Shown here piece after piece: positions 24,664-30,066 of a stretch of 64,000 nt of DNA; the stretch's first letter is position 1, and each line of letters starts with the position of its first letter. The notes beneath the pieces are model-generated. The model was given only the letters and a program-made list of their open reading frames with translations, made no database searches and had not been told where the DNA came from. The DNA is from Gammaproteobacteria bacterium (GTDB lineage Bacteria; Pseudomonadota; Gammaproteobacteria; Pseudomonadales; Halieaceae): contig JAUHXH010000001.1 in the NCBI GenBank assembly GCA_030427085.1, positions 930,001 to 994,000 on the forward strand, read 5' to 3'. The translations under genes and the position numbers were made by a program.

Positions 24664-26580
24664 TCAGCGCCGCAGGCTGATCTGTGCCTCCACCAGCACC
24701 GCTTCACCGACCTGGGCTTCAATCAATTCCTTGAGCTTGCTCAGTTGCTTGCCCTGGATCGGATGGGCAGCGCTCAAGTCCAGTTGCACCAGATGTGGGT
24801 CGCCAAGGGTAACGCGCACATTGCTCACTTCCACCAACTCCCCGAGGAGTTCAACCTGACCGCGAGGCACGTGGTTGCTGATCCAGTCGCGTTCCACCAG
24901 GTGATCGAAAGCGATGTAAAGGGGTATGGCGATGACCGCCATTATTACTGCTGTCACGCCAAGACCCTTGCGGGCACGACCAAACGGCGCAAACCCCAAA
25001 ACCAGAAAAGTCATGCTCGCGGCCAGCGCGATGCCCACCAGGTTAGTAATCAGGAGCAAGGCCGCACCCTCAGCCATTTCCCAGTGGCCCCAACCCAATC
25101 CGATGCCAGCCACACACAGGGGCGGCACCAGCGCCACCGCGATGGCCACACCTGCCAGGCTTTTGGCGACACTTTCATTGGAGGCAGCGTAAGCACCGGC
25201 CACCCCCGAGATCACCGCTACCATCAAGTCGAGCAAGGTCGGTGACATGCGCGACATCATTTCCGGTGTCGCCGTCTCCAGCGGGATACTCCAGGCCATC
25301 AGGATTGCGCATAACAAACCCCACGCCACGCCGATACCCAGCGTGCGCAGGGCACCCCGGATGAGGGACGAATCGGTACGCGCCAGGCCCATTGCCAGTG
25401 AAACAATGGGCGACATCAGTGGCGCGAGTATCATCGCGCCGATGATGACCGGAGCCGAGTTGGCGTAGAGACCGGACAGCGCGAGCAGGGCGCTCAGTAT
25501 CATCAACACCTGGAACGTGGAGGTGGCCCGGGCGTTGTCGCGCAGCGAAACAAACAACTCCCGGTATTCCTCTTCACTGGCGTGGCGGAACATCGGCAGG
25601 GGCTTGTCCGACAGGGCACGCGCACCGCCATTGGTGGGCACATTATCCATTCTGACCGTGTCTTTCTCTCGCGTTGCCACCAGCGCAGCATTGGCTGCCA
25701 GAGCCGGACCCGGCAGTAAACTCATGCGCTGTTCCAGCACCTGGAACTCCACGCTCTGGGCGTGCACCGGCTTGCCGTCAAGCAGATACTCGACTCCACC
25801 TTGCATGGCTTCAATCGACAGATGGCCACTCTGTACCAGGCCCAGCGAAGCTGGTAAGCGACTTAATTGGATACGCGGCGGCCACAGCAGTCGCAGCACA
25901 AACCACAGGTAGTTAAGCACTGATCTCGGCGCCAGGGCCAGCAGCGTGACACGCCCATCATTGATACCCAGATCACCGCTGAAACGGCGCCCTACCAGAG
26001 AACTGCGGTTGTGACCCACAACCAGCATACCCAGGGCTGCCAGTTCAAGTTTGCGATCCTTGCCGGTCGTTAACCGATAGGGGCTCAGGCGTAATTGTGT
26101 CAAGCCGCGCAGGGCACCTCGAAAGGTGCTCCAGCGGGTTTGTGGACGGTTGATGTCGTAAGGGCGCAGGGTCAACACCTTTCCCAACACCACCGAGGAA
26201 AAAACCAGTTCGCCGTTGCAGGTAATGACATCCGCTTCAATCACGGGCGAGTCGCGGTAATGGGCAACCAGGGCAGACAGTTCTCCCTGGGCGCCCATTG
26301 ATCCGCATGCGTGGGGCGCCGCCGGGTGTGGTAACACCCCGATTTCCCATTGGCGCTCAAGTGCCAGCGGGGTCAGATCGCGAAATTGCTCATCACTGAG
26401 GCACGCGAGCACGCGCGCTCGAACCGGCAAATTGTCCCGCTCACTCCAGGGTCGAGCGGCAAATTCACAGGCAGCCAGCAAGGCATCCTGCTGTTCCTGT
26501 GGGAGCTGGGTGTCGTAAAGCAGAAACATCGCGGCACGAGGGGGGACCTCGTCGGCGACTTCAAGGGCAGGATCAGTCAC
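24664..26580 (-). CDS. DUF389 membrane protein with a lipid-kinase-like N-terminal region
   Basis: The C-terminal half (about 350-580) holds some six transmembrane helices with the DUF389 pattern SAPVIIGAMILAPLMSPIVS near 375, followed by a small soluble domain. The N-terminal 330 residues resemble the C-terminal lobe of diacylglycerol/sphingosine-kinase-like proteins (GRRFSGDLGINDG, then FEVLEQRMSLLPG-like), without a recognisable ATP loop. I place the start at a GTG (26580) 7 nt after AGGAG, giving 638 aa and an 8-nt overlap with the thioesterase stop; the frame stays open to 26598. Function is unknown; DUF389 proteins are sometimes labelled TIGR00341. Confidence 0.82.
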   Translation of the reverse strand: MTDPALEVADEVPPRAAMFLLYDTQLPQEQQDALLAACEFAARPWSERDNLPVRARVLACLSDEQFRDLTPLALERQWEIGVLPHPAAPHACGSMGAQGELSALVAHYRDSPVIEADVITCNGELVFSSVVLGKVLTLRPYDINRPQTRWSTFRGALRGLTQLRLSPYRLTTGKDRKLELAALGMLVVGHNRSSLVGRRFSGDLGINDGRVTLLALAPRSVLNYLWFVLRLLWPPRIQLSRLPASLGLVQSGHLSIEAMQGGVEYLLDGKPVHAQSVEFQVLEQRMSLLPGPALAANAALVATREKDTVRMDNVPTNGGARALSDKPLPMFRHASEEEYRELFVSLRDNARATSTFQVLMILSALLALSGLYANSAPVIIGAMILAPLMSPIVSLAMGLARTDSSLIRGALRTLGIGVAWGLLCAILMAWSIPLETATPEMMSRMSPTLLDLMVAVISGVAGAYAASNESVAKSLAGVAIAVALVPPLCVAGIGLGWGHWEMAEGAALLLITNLVGIALAASMTFLVLGFAPFGRARKGLGVTAVIMAVIAIPLYIAFDHLVERDWISNHVPRGQVELLGELVEVSNVRVTLGDPHLVQLDLSAAHPIQGKQLSKLKELIEAQVGEAVLVEAQISLRR

Positions 26581-27049
26581 CACCAAACTCCTGTGCAAAC
26601 AACTTCAGTCGTGAATCGTCACGGACTACACCGTCGTGATCCGGCAGATAAAAAGTGCCGTTAAACCGGGCGACATCTTCACCATCGCACACCACCGCAC
26701 CGCTGGCGAAACCGAAGCGCCGACGCACTTCGACGCGATCGGTGAAGGCTTCAATCCACCGACCACGCTTGGCCGCACGGATGAAATCCAGGCTGAGATT
26801 GATGGTAGGTGCCCCACCGATAGTGCCGCGCTGCCGATTGATATTGTGCGCCGCCGCCACATCGGCCAGTGAGGCCAGCACTCCACCGTGGCAGATGCCC
26901 ATCATATTGCAGTGTTGGTCTTCTACCACCAGGCCAAAGCGTGCCGCGTTGTCCGACACACAGTGGAACAGGGGTTGCAGTGCATCGATAAACCCAAGGC
27001 CTGTGGTCAAGGCCGTAAAGCCCTCGGGAATGCCTGCCTGTTCGCCCAT
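26573..27049 (-). CDS. PaaI-like hotdog-fold thioesterase
   Basis: The 158-aa protein has the hotdog core CHGGVLASLADVAAAHNI (near residue 53-70), which includes the HGG motif of acyl-CoA thioesterases of the PaaI/YbgC class, and LSLDFIRAAKRGRWIEA as the following strand. It probably hydrolyses an acyl- or aroyl-CoA in the cytoplasm, substrate unknown. It sits 8 bp after the flavodoxin-like gene and overlaps the DUF389 gene by 8 nt, so the three form a likely operon. Confidence 0.85.
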   Translation of the reverse strand: MGEQAGIPEGFTALTTGLGFIDALQPLFHCVSDNAARFGLVVEDQHCNMMGICHGGVLASLADVAAAHNINRQRGTIGGAPTINLSLDFIRAAKRGRWIEAFTDRVEVRRRFGFASGAVVCDGEDVARFNGTFYLPDHDGVVRDDSRLKLFAQEFGGD

Positions 27050-27057
27050 GCTGCCTC

Positions 27058-27513
27058 CTAAAAAATGCCCATTTGAATGCCGGTCATCAGCCCCTGCCCC
27101 AGGTCCCGCGCCTGAGCCAGTCCCGCTTCCTCTACTTCCCCGCGGATAATCAGGGGTTCCACGGCTTCTACCAGCGGGTAGCCCGAGAGGATACGTTGCG
27201 CCTGAGCCACGGCGCCACGACCATCATTGCCCGCACCAATCACCAGTCCGTAGGGCCGCACCACACCTACGTCAATAGCGGGATAGAAGGTCCTGTCGAG
27301 AAAATCCTTGATCGAACCGGCCAGGGTGCCCGAGTTCTCCGCCGCCACCAGCAACAGGCCATCGCAGTGAATGAGATCCTGTGTGTCAGCGTCCCAGGCC
27401 CGACGGCAGATTACCTGCGCCTCTCCCGCCTGCCGGGCCCCGGCCACCGCCGCCTGCGCCAGCCTGGCACTGTTGCCACTCTGGCTATGGTAGATCACCA
27501 GCAGGTTCTTCAT
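27058..27513 (-). CDS. Flavodoxin / NAD(P)H:quinone-reductase-like flavoprotein
   Basis: The 151-aa protein opens NLLVIYHSQSGNSARLAQA, where HSQSGNS is an FMN phosphate-binding loop, and has AAENSGTLAGSIKDFLDRTF near 60-77 as the second FMN-contacting loop. It is soluble with no extra domain. I start at ATG 27513 (AGAGG 6 nt upstream) rather than the adjoining GTG 27516. Redox partner and substrate are unknown. It appears to be the first gene of a flavodoxin-thioesterase-DUF389 operon, whose upstream region carries two DnaA boxes. Confidence 0.82.
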   Translation of the reverse strand: MKNLLVIYHSQSGNSARLAQAAVAGARQAGEAQVICRRAWDADTQDLIHCDGLLLVAAENSGTLAGSIKDFLDRTFYPAIDVGVVRPYGLVIGAGNDGRGAVAQAQRILSGYPLVEAVEPLIIRGEVEEAGLAQARDLGQGLMTGIQMGIF

Positions 27514-27516
27514 CAC

Positions 27517-27885
27517 TTCCCTCTTCCGGAACGGCGGGTCTTAAACGGCCTGGAGCACAGGCTATCCCCCGACTATCCACGACTTGTCTGTGGATAACTG
27601 TGGGGACACTGCATCAGAAAAGTTATCCACAGGCATTTGCGAGGTCAGCACCAACCGCTAGTCCCTATCGGCAATTTGACGCCGAAAAATACTTAAATCA
27701 ATGACTTAGCTATTTTTTATAGGCTCCGGAGAAAAGCACCCACTGAAAACTCTGTAAATAAAGGGGTCTCCGTGACCGTGTGCATAACACTTTGCAATCT
27801 CTGTTAGGACGCACTGACCCCACAGGGCCCAACATACCTTTAGTTTCCTATTTCGGCCTGCAGCTATATTGCACCTAGCCTGCGC
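27517..27885. promoter_or_regulatory. 369-bp intergenic region with DnaA boxes and an AT-rich stretch
   Basis: There is no credible gene here. The region lies upstream of the flavodoxin operon and downstream of rlmKL. It contains two consensus DnaA boxes in inverted orientation, a weaker CTATCCACG at 27573-27581, and an AT-rich run at about 27687-27723. The rest shows nothing I can name. A replication origin is unlikely because no dnaA, dnaN, gidA or rpmH is nearby. Confidence 0.6.
27588..27632. repeat. Perfect 12-bp inverted repeat containing two consensus DnaA boxes
   Basis: CTGTGGATAACT (27588-27599) and AGTTATCCACAG (27621-27632) are exact reverse complements 21 bp apart. Each contains the 9-mer TTATCCACA (as TGTGGATAA at 27589-27597 and TTATCCACA at 27623-27631), the strongest DnaA-binding sequence known in E. 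coli. It could titrate DnaA, regulate the flavodoxin operon, or form a cruciform or transcript stem. Confidence 0.75.
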
Positions 27886-30066
27886 TCAGGCGGGCTTGCA
27901 AATGCGGAAGCAGCAGTGAATCCGCGTGTTGCGGGCAAAGTCGGGATCGATGGTGTCAGCACTGATGTCCTCAATAGTCGCTTCGGGCAGGCAGTCCTCG
28001 GCCAGGCGAAATCCTCGCCGATTGTTGGAGAAGTACAGCACCCCGCCCGGGGCCAGTAACTCCCAGGCTGAAGCCAGCAGGTCCGGATGATCCCTCTGCA
28101 CGTCAAAGCTGTCATCCATCCGTGCTGAATTGGAAAAAGACGGTGGGTCGAGCAGGATCAGGTCGTACTGCTCACGACAATCGCGCATCCAGGCGCGGCA
28201 ATCCGCCCGCACCACCTGGTGCCGCCCTTCGGCCAAGCCATTGTTAGCCAGATTCTTCTTCAGCCAGCCCAGGTAGGTATTCGACAGATCCACGCTGGTC
28301 GTCGCGCGCGCCTGCCCCAGAGCAGCGTGCACGGTGGCCGCGCCGGTGTAGCAAAACAGATTGAGAAAGCGCTTCCCCGCGGCCTCCCGGCCCAAGTGCA
28401 GGCGCAGTGGGCGGTGGTCGAGAAACAGGCCGGTATCGAGGTAATCCCAAAGATTGATGAGCAGTTTCGCCGGCCCCTCAGTGACCGATAGCAGTTCACC
28501 ACGGGCGGCTTCCTTGCGGTACTGGGATGCGCCGCGCTGACGCTGGCGCTGTTTGAAGGCCACCCGCTCCGGCGCCACTTCCAGGGCACCGGGAATAGCC
28601 TGGGCCACCTCGTCCAACCGCCGCGCCGCGGCGGACTCATCCACGCCAGAAGGCGCCTTGTACTCCGCCACATGCACGTGCTCGCCATAGATATCTACCG
28701 CCACGGCATACTCCGGCATGTCGGCGTCGTAGAGGCGGTAGCAGGCGATGTCATTGTCCCTGACCCAACGTGCCAGGCGACGCCGATTCTTTTTCAATCG
28801 GTTGGCGAACATGGTCGCCCCTTCCGTCAGGGGCTGGGCCTGCTGCTCCACCGAAGAGGGCGATTCCCCGGCGGGAAGCGGCGGCCGTTGCGCCGCCAGG
28901 TCAAACAACAACAGACTGGAAGCCAGGGCGCCGTTATAAAACGCGTAGCGTTTGTGGCTGCGCAAGCCAGTGGCCTTGCCCAACTCGCGATCGGCGGTGA
29001 ACACCGCCGCTTGCCAGCGGGGGAACTCGCGCTGCATTACCCGGCCCAACTCGGCATAGAGGAATACCAGGCTCTGACGTTCACCGAGGCGTTCGCCATA
29101 GGGCGGGTTGCAAATTATCAGGCCCCGTTCCAACGGCCGATGGGTCGGCTTTCGCAGTTCCGCCAATGGCTTGCAGCTAACGCGAACCTGGGCTTCCAGG
29201 CCCGCGCTGCGAATATTCTCTTCCGCGCGGCGGATGACGCGTGGGTCGGCATCGTAGCCGCGAATTTCTGGCAACTCGCGCGCACGGCCCCGCTCTGCAC
29301 GGGTTCGAGCATCGCTCAGGATCGCCTGCCACTGCTGCTCATTGTGACCGGGCCAGGCTTCAAAGCCCCAATGACGCCGTGCCAACCCTGGTGCGATATC
29401 CGCCACCATCATGGCACCTTCCAGCAAGAGCGTGGCCGAGCCACACATGGGGTCGATCAGCGCGCCGCCCGCTGCGGCCATCCCGAGCCAGTCCGCGCGC
29501 AGCAACAAGGCCGCGGCCAGGTTTTCTTTCAGGGGTGCAGCGCCAGCCTGCCGGCGGTAGCCGCGCCGGTGCAGACTCTCTCCCGCCAGGTCCAGCGCCA
29601 CAGCCACCCGACCACGCGAGAGTCGCACATTGATCCGCGTGCGGGCTTGTTTCAGATCCACTGAGGGGCGCGGCAGGCCTTGATCGCGAAAGTAATCAAC
29701 GATGGCGTCTTTGCTGCGCTGTGCGCCGAAGCGTGTATGACGGATATCCCTGCTCTGGCCGGTGAAATCCACCGCCAAAGTAGTATCGGCGGGCATCACG
29801 GTGGACCAGTTCACCGCGCGCAGGCCGGCGTAGAGCGCATCAGCTGTTTCAGCCTCGAAACTGGCCAGCGGCCGCAGGACTCTGTTGGCAAGGCGGGACC
29901 ACAGGCAGGCGCGATAGGCCAGTGCCAACGGACCGTCGAAGTACACGCCGGCGACACTCTCTTTTACCGCATCGGCACCCAGTGTACTCAGCTCAGTTGC
30001 CAGCAAGCCCTCCAGCCCCTTGGGACAGGTGGCGAACCACTCGCCTCTCATTCCTCCCTGCACCAC
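27886..30066 (-). CDS. rlmL: Bifunctional 23S rRNA methyltransferase RlmKL
   Basis: This 726-aa fusion modifies 23S rRNA at G2445 (N2-methyl, RlmL half) and G2069 (N7-methyl, RlmK half). In order: a THUMP-type RNA-binding region (about 50-160), the RlmL methyltransferase with NPPYGERLGE near 315, and the RlmK methyltransferase with the SAM loop LNLFCYTGAATVHAA near 555 and LDPPSFSNS near 640. The fusion is typical of gammaproteobacteria. The start is uncertain: GTG 30066 has GGAG 11 nt upstream, whereas the ATG at 30051 (MRGEWFATCPKGLE) fits homologues better but has GGAGG too close. Divergent from rmf. Confidence 0.93.
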   Translation of the reverse strand: MVQGGMRGEWFATCPKGLEGLLATELSTLGADAVKESVAGVYFDGPLALAYRACLWSRLANRVLRPLASFEAETADALYAGLRAVNWSTVMPADTTLAVDFTGQSRDIRHTRFGAQRSKDAIVDYFRDQGLPRPSVDLKQARTRINVRLSRGRVAVALDLAGESLHRRGYRRQAGAAPLKENLAAALLLRADWLGMAAAGGALIDPMCGSATLLLEGAMMVADIAPGLARRHWGFEAWPGHNEQQWQAILSDARTRAERGRARELPEIRGYDADPRVIRRAEENIRSAGLEAQVRVSCKPLAELRKPTHRPLERGLIICNPPYGERLGERQSLVFLYAELGRVMQREFPRWQAAVFTADRELGKATGLRSHKRYAFYNGALASSLLLFDLAAQRPPLPAGESPSSVEQQAQPLTEGATMFANRLKKNRRRLARWVRDNDIACYRLYDADMPEYAVAVDIYGEHVHVAEYKAPSGVDESAAARRLDEVAQAIPGALEVAPERVAFKQRQRQRGASQYRKEAARGELLSVTEGPAKLLINLWDYLDTGLFLDHRPLRLHLGREAAGKRFLNLFCYTGAATVHAALGQARATTSVDLSNTYLGWLKKNLANNGLAEGRHQVVRADCRAWMRDCREQYDLILLDPPSFSNSARMDDSFDVQRDHPDLLASAWELLAPGGVLYFSNNRRGFRLAEDCLPEATIEDISADTIDPDFARNTRIHCCFRICKPA

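Follow-up and report, generated by a model that had tools for sequence, protein, structure and literature searches.

The intergenic region between rlmKL and the flavodoxin-like gene

The window, as the whole 64,000-nucleotide stretch of DNA analysed here is called, covers positions 930001-994000 of contig C5 in a Halieaceae genome of 4.19 Mb and 8 contigs. Between rlmKL and a flavodoxin-like gene it holds an intergenic region with several DnaA boxes and a predicted IHF-binding site, whose features are the following (window coordinates):

27058..27516, minus strand: flavodoxin-like gene, downstream (Flavodoxin_1, E 1.3e-4, below the Pfam cut-off)
27562..27570, plus strand: weak mirror-image box CTATCCCCC beyond box I
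27573..27581, plus strand: box I-like CTATCCACG, opposed to box II, 2 mismatches
27574..27718, minus strand: IHF-to-core part of the putative DARS-type element (match to model R1, see below)
27588..27599: left arm of the 12-bp inverted repeat
27589..27597, minus strand: box II, an exact TTATCCACA in the left arm of the repeat
27601..27609, minus strand: GTGTCCCCA, a weak box resembling box III, with 3 mismatches to TTWTNCACA and 12 bp ahead of box II
27621..27632: right arm of the 12-bp inverted repeat
27623..27631, plus strand: additional exact TTATCCACA in the right arm, outside the family-wide layout
27696..27708, minus strand: IHF-binding consensus TAAGTCATTGATT with no mismatch, 111 bp upstream of box II
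27779..27787, minus strand: distal DnaA box TTATGCACA, 190 bp upstream of box II
27886..30066, minus strand: rlmKL, 3' end toward the element (Pfam UPF0020, RlmL_1st, THUMP and Methyltrans_SAM)

The flavodoxin-like protein, which we take not to be MioC-like, belongs to a likely operon at 24664-27516 (minus strand) that also encodes a 4HBT thioesterase and a DUF389 protein.

The original prediction described two exact TTATCCACA boxes in a perfect 12-bp inverted repeat, with a weaker third box (CTATCCACG) 7 bp to the left, at a site away from the replication origin, and all of this is borne out. No further exact copy of the box occurs in the 64-kb window, the repeat is perfect over 12 bp and 93% identical over 15 bp, and by our own arithmetic about 0.002 pairs of boxes at most 50 bp apart would be expected by chance. 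A genome-wide count of the motif, proposed as a check, returned 14 exact copies compared with 11 for a reversed control pattern, so that the motif is neither common nor enriched. Read along the minus strand, the window shows the distal box first, followed by the exact IHF site, the weak box III, box II and an opposed, weak box I, the last two separated by a gap of 7 bp (start to start 16). The mirror-image side carries a second R1 match on the plus strand (27519-27598, 11.5 bits). A partly palindromic, conserved GGTNAGTGCCTGCAAAC-like motif lies at 27800-27819 (minus strand), directly beyond the distal box and 3' of rlmKL, and is common to most of 17 aligned Halieaceae loci.

The other proposed check, to locate oriC by GC skew and dnaA, places both the skew minimum and dnaA on another contig, C2, where the skew is minus in the sample at 180-200 kb and plus in that at 225-245 kb, on either side of dnaA at 219 kb. 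The genome's own dnaA region gave no R1 match, and DnaA, DnaN, MnmG, MioC or RsmG were encoded within about 1.5 kb on each side at none of 90 element loci. The reading of the site as an origin was rejected on the position of the skew minimum and dnaA and on this lack of origin-type genes.

Conservation at the rlmKL locus in Halieaceae

Homologs of the flavodoxin gene occur in 79 of 140 same-family genomes (own included), the other 61 being without a match, and 18 of 30 fetched loci (own included) have an exact TTATCCACA within 700 bp upstream of it. When 17 loci are aligned on the flavodoxin strand, a distal box, an IHF-like site, a weak YTRTCCCCA-like box, TTATCCACA and then mostly an opposed TGTGGATAA follow one another; most aligned family elements have the YTRTCCCCA-like form of box III, which is weak for DnaA. 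The same layout follows rlmKL in many Halieaceae at a rigid spacing, with the IHF site about 110 bp and the distal box about 190 bp from box II. A family triple-box pattern (boxes III and II and an opposed box I, gap fixed at 8, at most 3 mismatches) matches 50 of the 140 genomes with no control matches; it did not find the element of the window's own genome, because of the shorter gap and the degenerate box I there.

Among 30 rlmKL-locus elements, an IHF consensus with at most 1 mismatch stands in 26, at -109 to -112 (22 elements) or at -100/-101 (4), and a distal box with at most 1 mismatch likewise in 26, at -187 to -191 (21) or -179 to -180 (5); after shuffling, a site with no more than 1 mismatch turned up somewhere in the stretch in 119 of 1500 cases for the IHF consensus and in 109 of 1500 for the distal box. 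The two distance classes differ by approximately one helical turn; the distances in the window are 111 and 190. TCCCCA is found upstream of box II in 28 of the 30 elements, which were, however, chosen by a pattern containing TCCCCA.

Twenty-seven further family loci were read. At the rlmKL/flavodoxin locus, five Halieaceae genomes (G302 and G321-G324) have a gap of 5, that is a II-I distance of 14, and the g6 genomes show another box arrangement. No boxes of the listed kinds were seen at the locus in four g119 genomes, one g120 genome, G040, G221 and G401, the last two being short stretches. In one genus (loci L145-L148 of G303, G201, G304 and G305), two same-strand TTATCCACA stand 187 bp apart with no opposed box I. 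At loci L077, L080, L087, L091 and L093 the triple-box pattern fits both strands with at most 3 mismatches, so that the core is nearly palindromic in some species.

The symmetric exact pair, from which the original prediction started, did not hold up as a conserved unit. The pattern TGTGGATAAN{15,40}TTATCCACA matched 19 of 293 genomes of the order and, among 12 of the family, only the own genome, none of the 11 others having the pair. The prediction had named absence from close relatives or commonness throughout the genome as grounds against it; absence applies to the exact pair only, and neither applies to the element, whose conservation was assessed across the family and the class, no congener being among the genomes searched.

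The genes on either side bear on function. At all 30 family loci the 3' end of rlmKL points toward the element, and on the opposite side the flavodoxin gene starts at 20. At the remaining 10 the neighbour is a homolog of an ADH-type oxidoreductase (Pfam-typed in one, L072), whose 3' end lies some 20-40 bp from the core, so that the element there sits between two convergent 3' ends. For this reason the element is unlikely to be a promoter element, and control of the flavodoxin operon is unlikely as well. In E. coli, DARS and datA function less well when transcription runs through them (PMC5010248), which fits a place between convergent gene ends.

Related elements across Gammaproteobacteria and their chromosomal position

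An element confined to the family was first suggested by a narrow Halieaceae triple-box pattern, which matched 8 of 390 genomes of the order, all of the same family, and, in 84,980 species genomes, 39 stretches that all belonged to Halieaceae, its genera or unnamed Gammaproteobacteria. This idea was overturned by an IHF-anchored pattern (boxes I and II and an IHF site, with a II-I gap of 4-8 and a II-IHF distance of 97-127), which matched 47 places in 42 of 369 gammaproteobacterial genomes, own included, with no control matches. Of these places 30 were read, and apart from the window, with its II-I gap of 7, every one of them has a gap of 5. The IHF site stands 108-112 bp from box II in 28 of the 30 and 99-100 bp from it in the remaining 2, and a distal same-strand TTWTNCACA box at -180 to -201 accompanies 19 of the 29 places other than the window.

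A sequence-only model of 151 positions, R1, was built from an alignment (A1) of 24 elements taken from the places read, which included neither Halieaceae nor E. coli; its E-values are rough. In the window it matches positions 6-148 of the model with 24.5 bits (E 1.5e-6 when the window is searched, 1.0e-4 over the genome). In E. coli, where six 50-kb pieces (300 kb) including oriC, datA and neutral pieces were searched, DARS1 ranks first (33.5 bits, positions 8-150) and DARS2 second (26.4 bits, positions 7-150), followed by a match beside DARS2 (15.8 bits), two at datA (15.4 bits, partial, and 12.5), a partial one at oriC (13.6), one elsewhere in the oriC piece (12.2) and, as the best in the neutral pieces, one of 10.7 bits. 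An nhmmer profile of 27 sequences found family elements down to E 7.7e-21 but that of the window only in two collinear pieces, which scored 12.5 and 8.9 bits; it gave DARS1 18.6, datA 11.1 and DARS2 only 7.5 bits (E 10). R1 performs better than this profile.

Across the family, R1 matches at least 119 of 140 genomes and at least 75 of the 78 of good quality, often twice or more. In a further set of 78 genomes, drawn singly from 78 other families, at least 73 match at E 0.001 and at least 61 of these do so twice or more, while G530, G542, G557, G602 and G626 are without a match among the matches listed. None of these 78 genomes was in the training set of R1 (G608 shares its family with one training genome), and four of them (G614, G647, G653 and G656) had already been matched by the IHF-anchored pattern. 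Both scans were run with stricter filters, by which further elements may be missed, and some palindromic cores are matched on both strands, so that match counts are not exact copy numbers. Judged by these matches, candidate related elements are present in most of the gammaproteobacterial families sampled. Two or three tandem R1 matches in less than 1 kb, at G647:C11:305814-306299 and G665:C4:287887-288714, suggest duplicated elements.

The genes beside the elements differ widely. By tblastn at 90 element loci, PriA is encoded in 16, UvrB in 2 and QueD in 31, the last comprising 28 other Halieaceae, the own genome and 2 genomes of other families, and Pfam assignments on 20 flanking frames, three of which had no match, place PriA (6), UvrB, malic enzyme, HemN/HemW-type proteins and SelO among the neighbours. 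With such varied neighbours the element type is not tied to any single gene.

Two elements stand out clearly in the R1 scan of the own genome, the next match scoring 13.1 bits. Besides the window element there is a better-conserved one:

C5 222575..222718, minus strand: DARS-type element, as judged from its sequence, beside queD (locus L215 of genome G000; R1 60.2 bits, E 6.9e-16)

Its core, read by eye, is TTTTCCACA-N5-TGTGTATAA (II-I 14), with a box III of 2 mismatches at 12. At 24.5 as against 60.2 bits, the copy in the window is weaker than the one beside queD. Two tRNA-like sequences were also noticed by eye near the queD element.

On C5 the sign of the GC skew changes between 690 and 737 kb, plus before and minus after, a terminus signature that puts box II of the window (957.6 kb) about 0.22-0.27 Mb from the terminus; the queD element lies 0.47-0.51 Mb from the skew flip on its opposite side. 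In single- or near-single-contig Halieaceae genomes, with the antipode of dnaA taken as the terminus, the rlmKL element stands at 0.84 (G134), 0.94 (G337) and 0.84 (G280, main contig) of the distance from dnaA to the antipode, and the second element at 0.72, 0.86 and 0.74 in the same genomes. The corresponding fractions are 0.97 for the flavodoxin-locus boxes and 0.96 for the best R1 element of G303, and 0.76 and 0.75 for the best R1 elements of G293 and G341. In the rest of the class, the distance between element and dnaA on a shared contig is about 54 kb (G594), 145 kb (G647), 0.58 Mb (G674) or 1.0 Mb (G529), and the position of the element outside Halieaceae therefore varies.

Interpretation and comparison with known DnaA-related sites

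Taken with the observed layout, spacing, conservation and location, the similarity to E. coli DARS1 and DARS2 suggests that the intergenic stretch 27562-27787 is probably a diverged DARS-type element, one of two in the genome. The functional reading of the original prediction, which had offered datA- or DARS-like activity or DnaA control of the operon, survives in its DARS-like part, supported by the architecture, the conservation and a model free of E. coli sequences that recovers DARS1 and DARS2; its flavodoxin-operon part does not survive. We write "DARS-type", and not DARS in the strict sense, because of the core spacing of 16, the weak boxes I and III and the extra exact box.

A different role for the same boxes would be that of a datA-like or titration site, at which boxes on both sides of an IHF bend promote ATP-DnaA hydrolysis or simply soak up DnaA. 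This is unlikely, even if the distal box, the IHF site and the core boxes lie on one strand as in E. coli datA, the exact boxes of the window are of high affinity and the nhmmer profile scored datA over DARS2, since R1 gives datA only 15.4 and 12.5 bits against 33.5 for DARS1 and 26.4 for DARS2, and in E. coli datA nothing at -12 comes within 2 mismatches of a box and the opposed box stands at +12, not +14. Moreover, the Halieaceae element is near the terminus, whereas datA lies near oriC in E. coli and is weaker at the terminus (PMC5010248). The window copy could also be an ancestral DARS drifting in this species since the queD element suffices, a view to which its degenerate boxes I and III, odd spacing and low score would lend themselves, as would the four g119 genomes and one g120 genome that keep the flavodoxin gene with no boxes listed at the locus; with the IHF site, the distal box and box II intact at family spacing and an extra exact box adjoining the core, such decay is unlikely.

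Regulation of the flavodoxin-thioesterase-DUF389 operon by DnaA through upstream boxes would suit the position of the element immediately ahead of the start of the flavodoxin gene, as seen in the window and in 20 of the 30 family loci, and DnaA does regulate transcription at some E. coli sites (PMC5742627). It is nevertheless highly improbable, given the 10 loci where the element is flanked by two 3' ends and the occurrence of the same element type outside the family beside unrelated genes, by priA, uvrB, queD, malic enzyme, SelO and others; that 27400-27950 contains no sigma-70-like promoter carries little weight, as shuffles average only 0.3. A transcription terminator or RNA hairpin after rlmKL, which a 12-bp inverted repeat in the 3' flank might bring to mind, was rejected and has next to nothing in its favour: the loop would be 21 bases long, each arm is a DnaA box, one at a conserved spacing, and conservation does not extend to the pair of arms. 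No terminator-like site was found in 27400-27950 either, which again weighs little at a shuffle average of 0.6.

If the DARS-type reading is right, ADP-DnaA would bind all three core boxes, and the two molecules facing each other head to head on II and I would loosen their ADP; apo-DnaA would then leave and take up ATP. IHF would bend the DNA about 110 bp away and bring the distal DnaA box to the core, and the complex so shaped may time or stimulate the reaction, while the place near the terminus could couple DnaA recharging to late replication. The binding of DnaA and IHF, the nucleotide exchange and the timing are inferred here by analogy with work on E. coli DARS (PMC8682772; PMC5742627; PMC4245941). 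The distal same-strand box suggests a loop to the core, and such a box is not known to us from descriptions of E. coli. The rigid, helix-phased spacing and the distal box together would lead one to expect a looped complex, which may have been remodelled in E. coli DARS2.

DARS2 homologs are described for seven E. coli-proximal species, reaching as far as Vibrio and Shewanella (PMC8682772), a review speaks of E. coli-proximal beta- or gamma-proteobacteria (PMC5742627), and the titles and abstract openings listed from the open-licence literature yielded no description of DARS in Pseudomonadales. The chances seem to us evenly balanced that DARS is an ancestral, near-universal gammaproteobacterial part and no speciality of the E. 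coli group, usually kept in about two copies and in its full form built of a core, a helix-phased IHF site and a distal same-strand box, and that Halieaceae keep both copies in the terminus half. The R1 matches in at least 73 of the 78 other-family genomes make initiator recharging outside the relatives of E. coli testable in many lineages, and in Halieaceae, if this is true, the recharging of DnaA would be a late- or end-of-replication event.

Among known systems, B. subtilis also has DnaA-box clusters away from oriC (PMC5010248; PMC13220808), and according to the FEMS review datA, DARS1, DARS2 and IHF are absent from it (PMC13220808). For the E. coli sites, DARS1 was sought in the bioD-uvrB gap and datA in its gene gap, both checked against the boxes, and DARS cores were recognised by their three boxes. 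In datA, boxes 2, 3 and 7 around one IHF site promote ATP hydrolysis. In its E. coli sequence we place one box at -162, IHF at -97, the next box at 0 and an opposed one at +12. As in the window, DnaA boxes flank an IHF site on one strand, but the spacing is different; the missing box III at -12, the opposed box at +12, the place near oriC and the weak R1 matches set datA apart.

DARS1 and DARS2, read in the same direction, have box III at -12, box II at 0 and an opposed box I at +14. The window likewise has three core boxes with I opposed to II and III, two of the three being weak, and keeps the III-II distance of 12, but not the II-I distance of 14, and R1 covers nearly the whole model in DARS1, DARS2 and the window. 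With DARS1 the element type shares the core III-12-II-14-I and a uvrB neighbour in 2 of the 90 element loci, and DARS1 is the best R1 match in the E. coli pieces; it differs in that the 701 bases scanned around DARS1 contain no IHF consensus within 1 mismatch.

DARS2, whose activity requires the Fis sites FBS2-3, was taken from the rppH-ygdT gap near mutH. It is placed near rppH (PMC5010248). The window resembles it in the order and orientation III > II > < I, in the III-II distance of 12 and in a predicted IHF site of the same orientation upstream, which has the exact consensus and stands at a helix-phased, fixed place. The differences are a II-I distance of 16 instead of 14, an IHF distance of 111 instead of 99 (the start, before box II, of the E. 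coli IHF-like site in window orientation, presumably IBS2), a distal box that lies at -190 on the same strand (in E. coli, the box at -197 is opposed), and one IHF consensus where we find two IHF-like sites 3 bp apart, with 1 mismatch each, in agreement with the 3 bp between IBS1 and IBS2 (PMC4245941). The neighbour genes differ too, and the location on the terminus side contrasts with E. coli, in which DARS2 lies mid-arm and works less well when relocated to the terminus (PMC5010248). When the IHF sites of DARS2 were shifted toward the Fis sites, a move of 10 bp left them moderately effective and one of 5 bp only partially so, and both moves toward the core were only partially effective (PMC4245941); the distance of the IHF site in Halieaceae, stepped by one turn of the helix, fits this difference between 10 and 5 bp.
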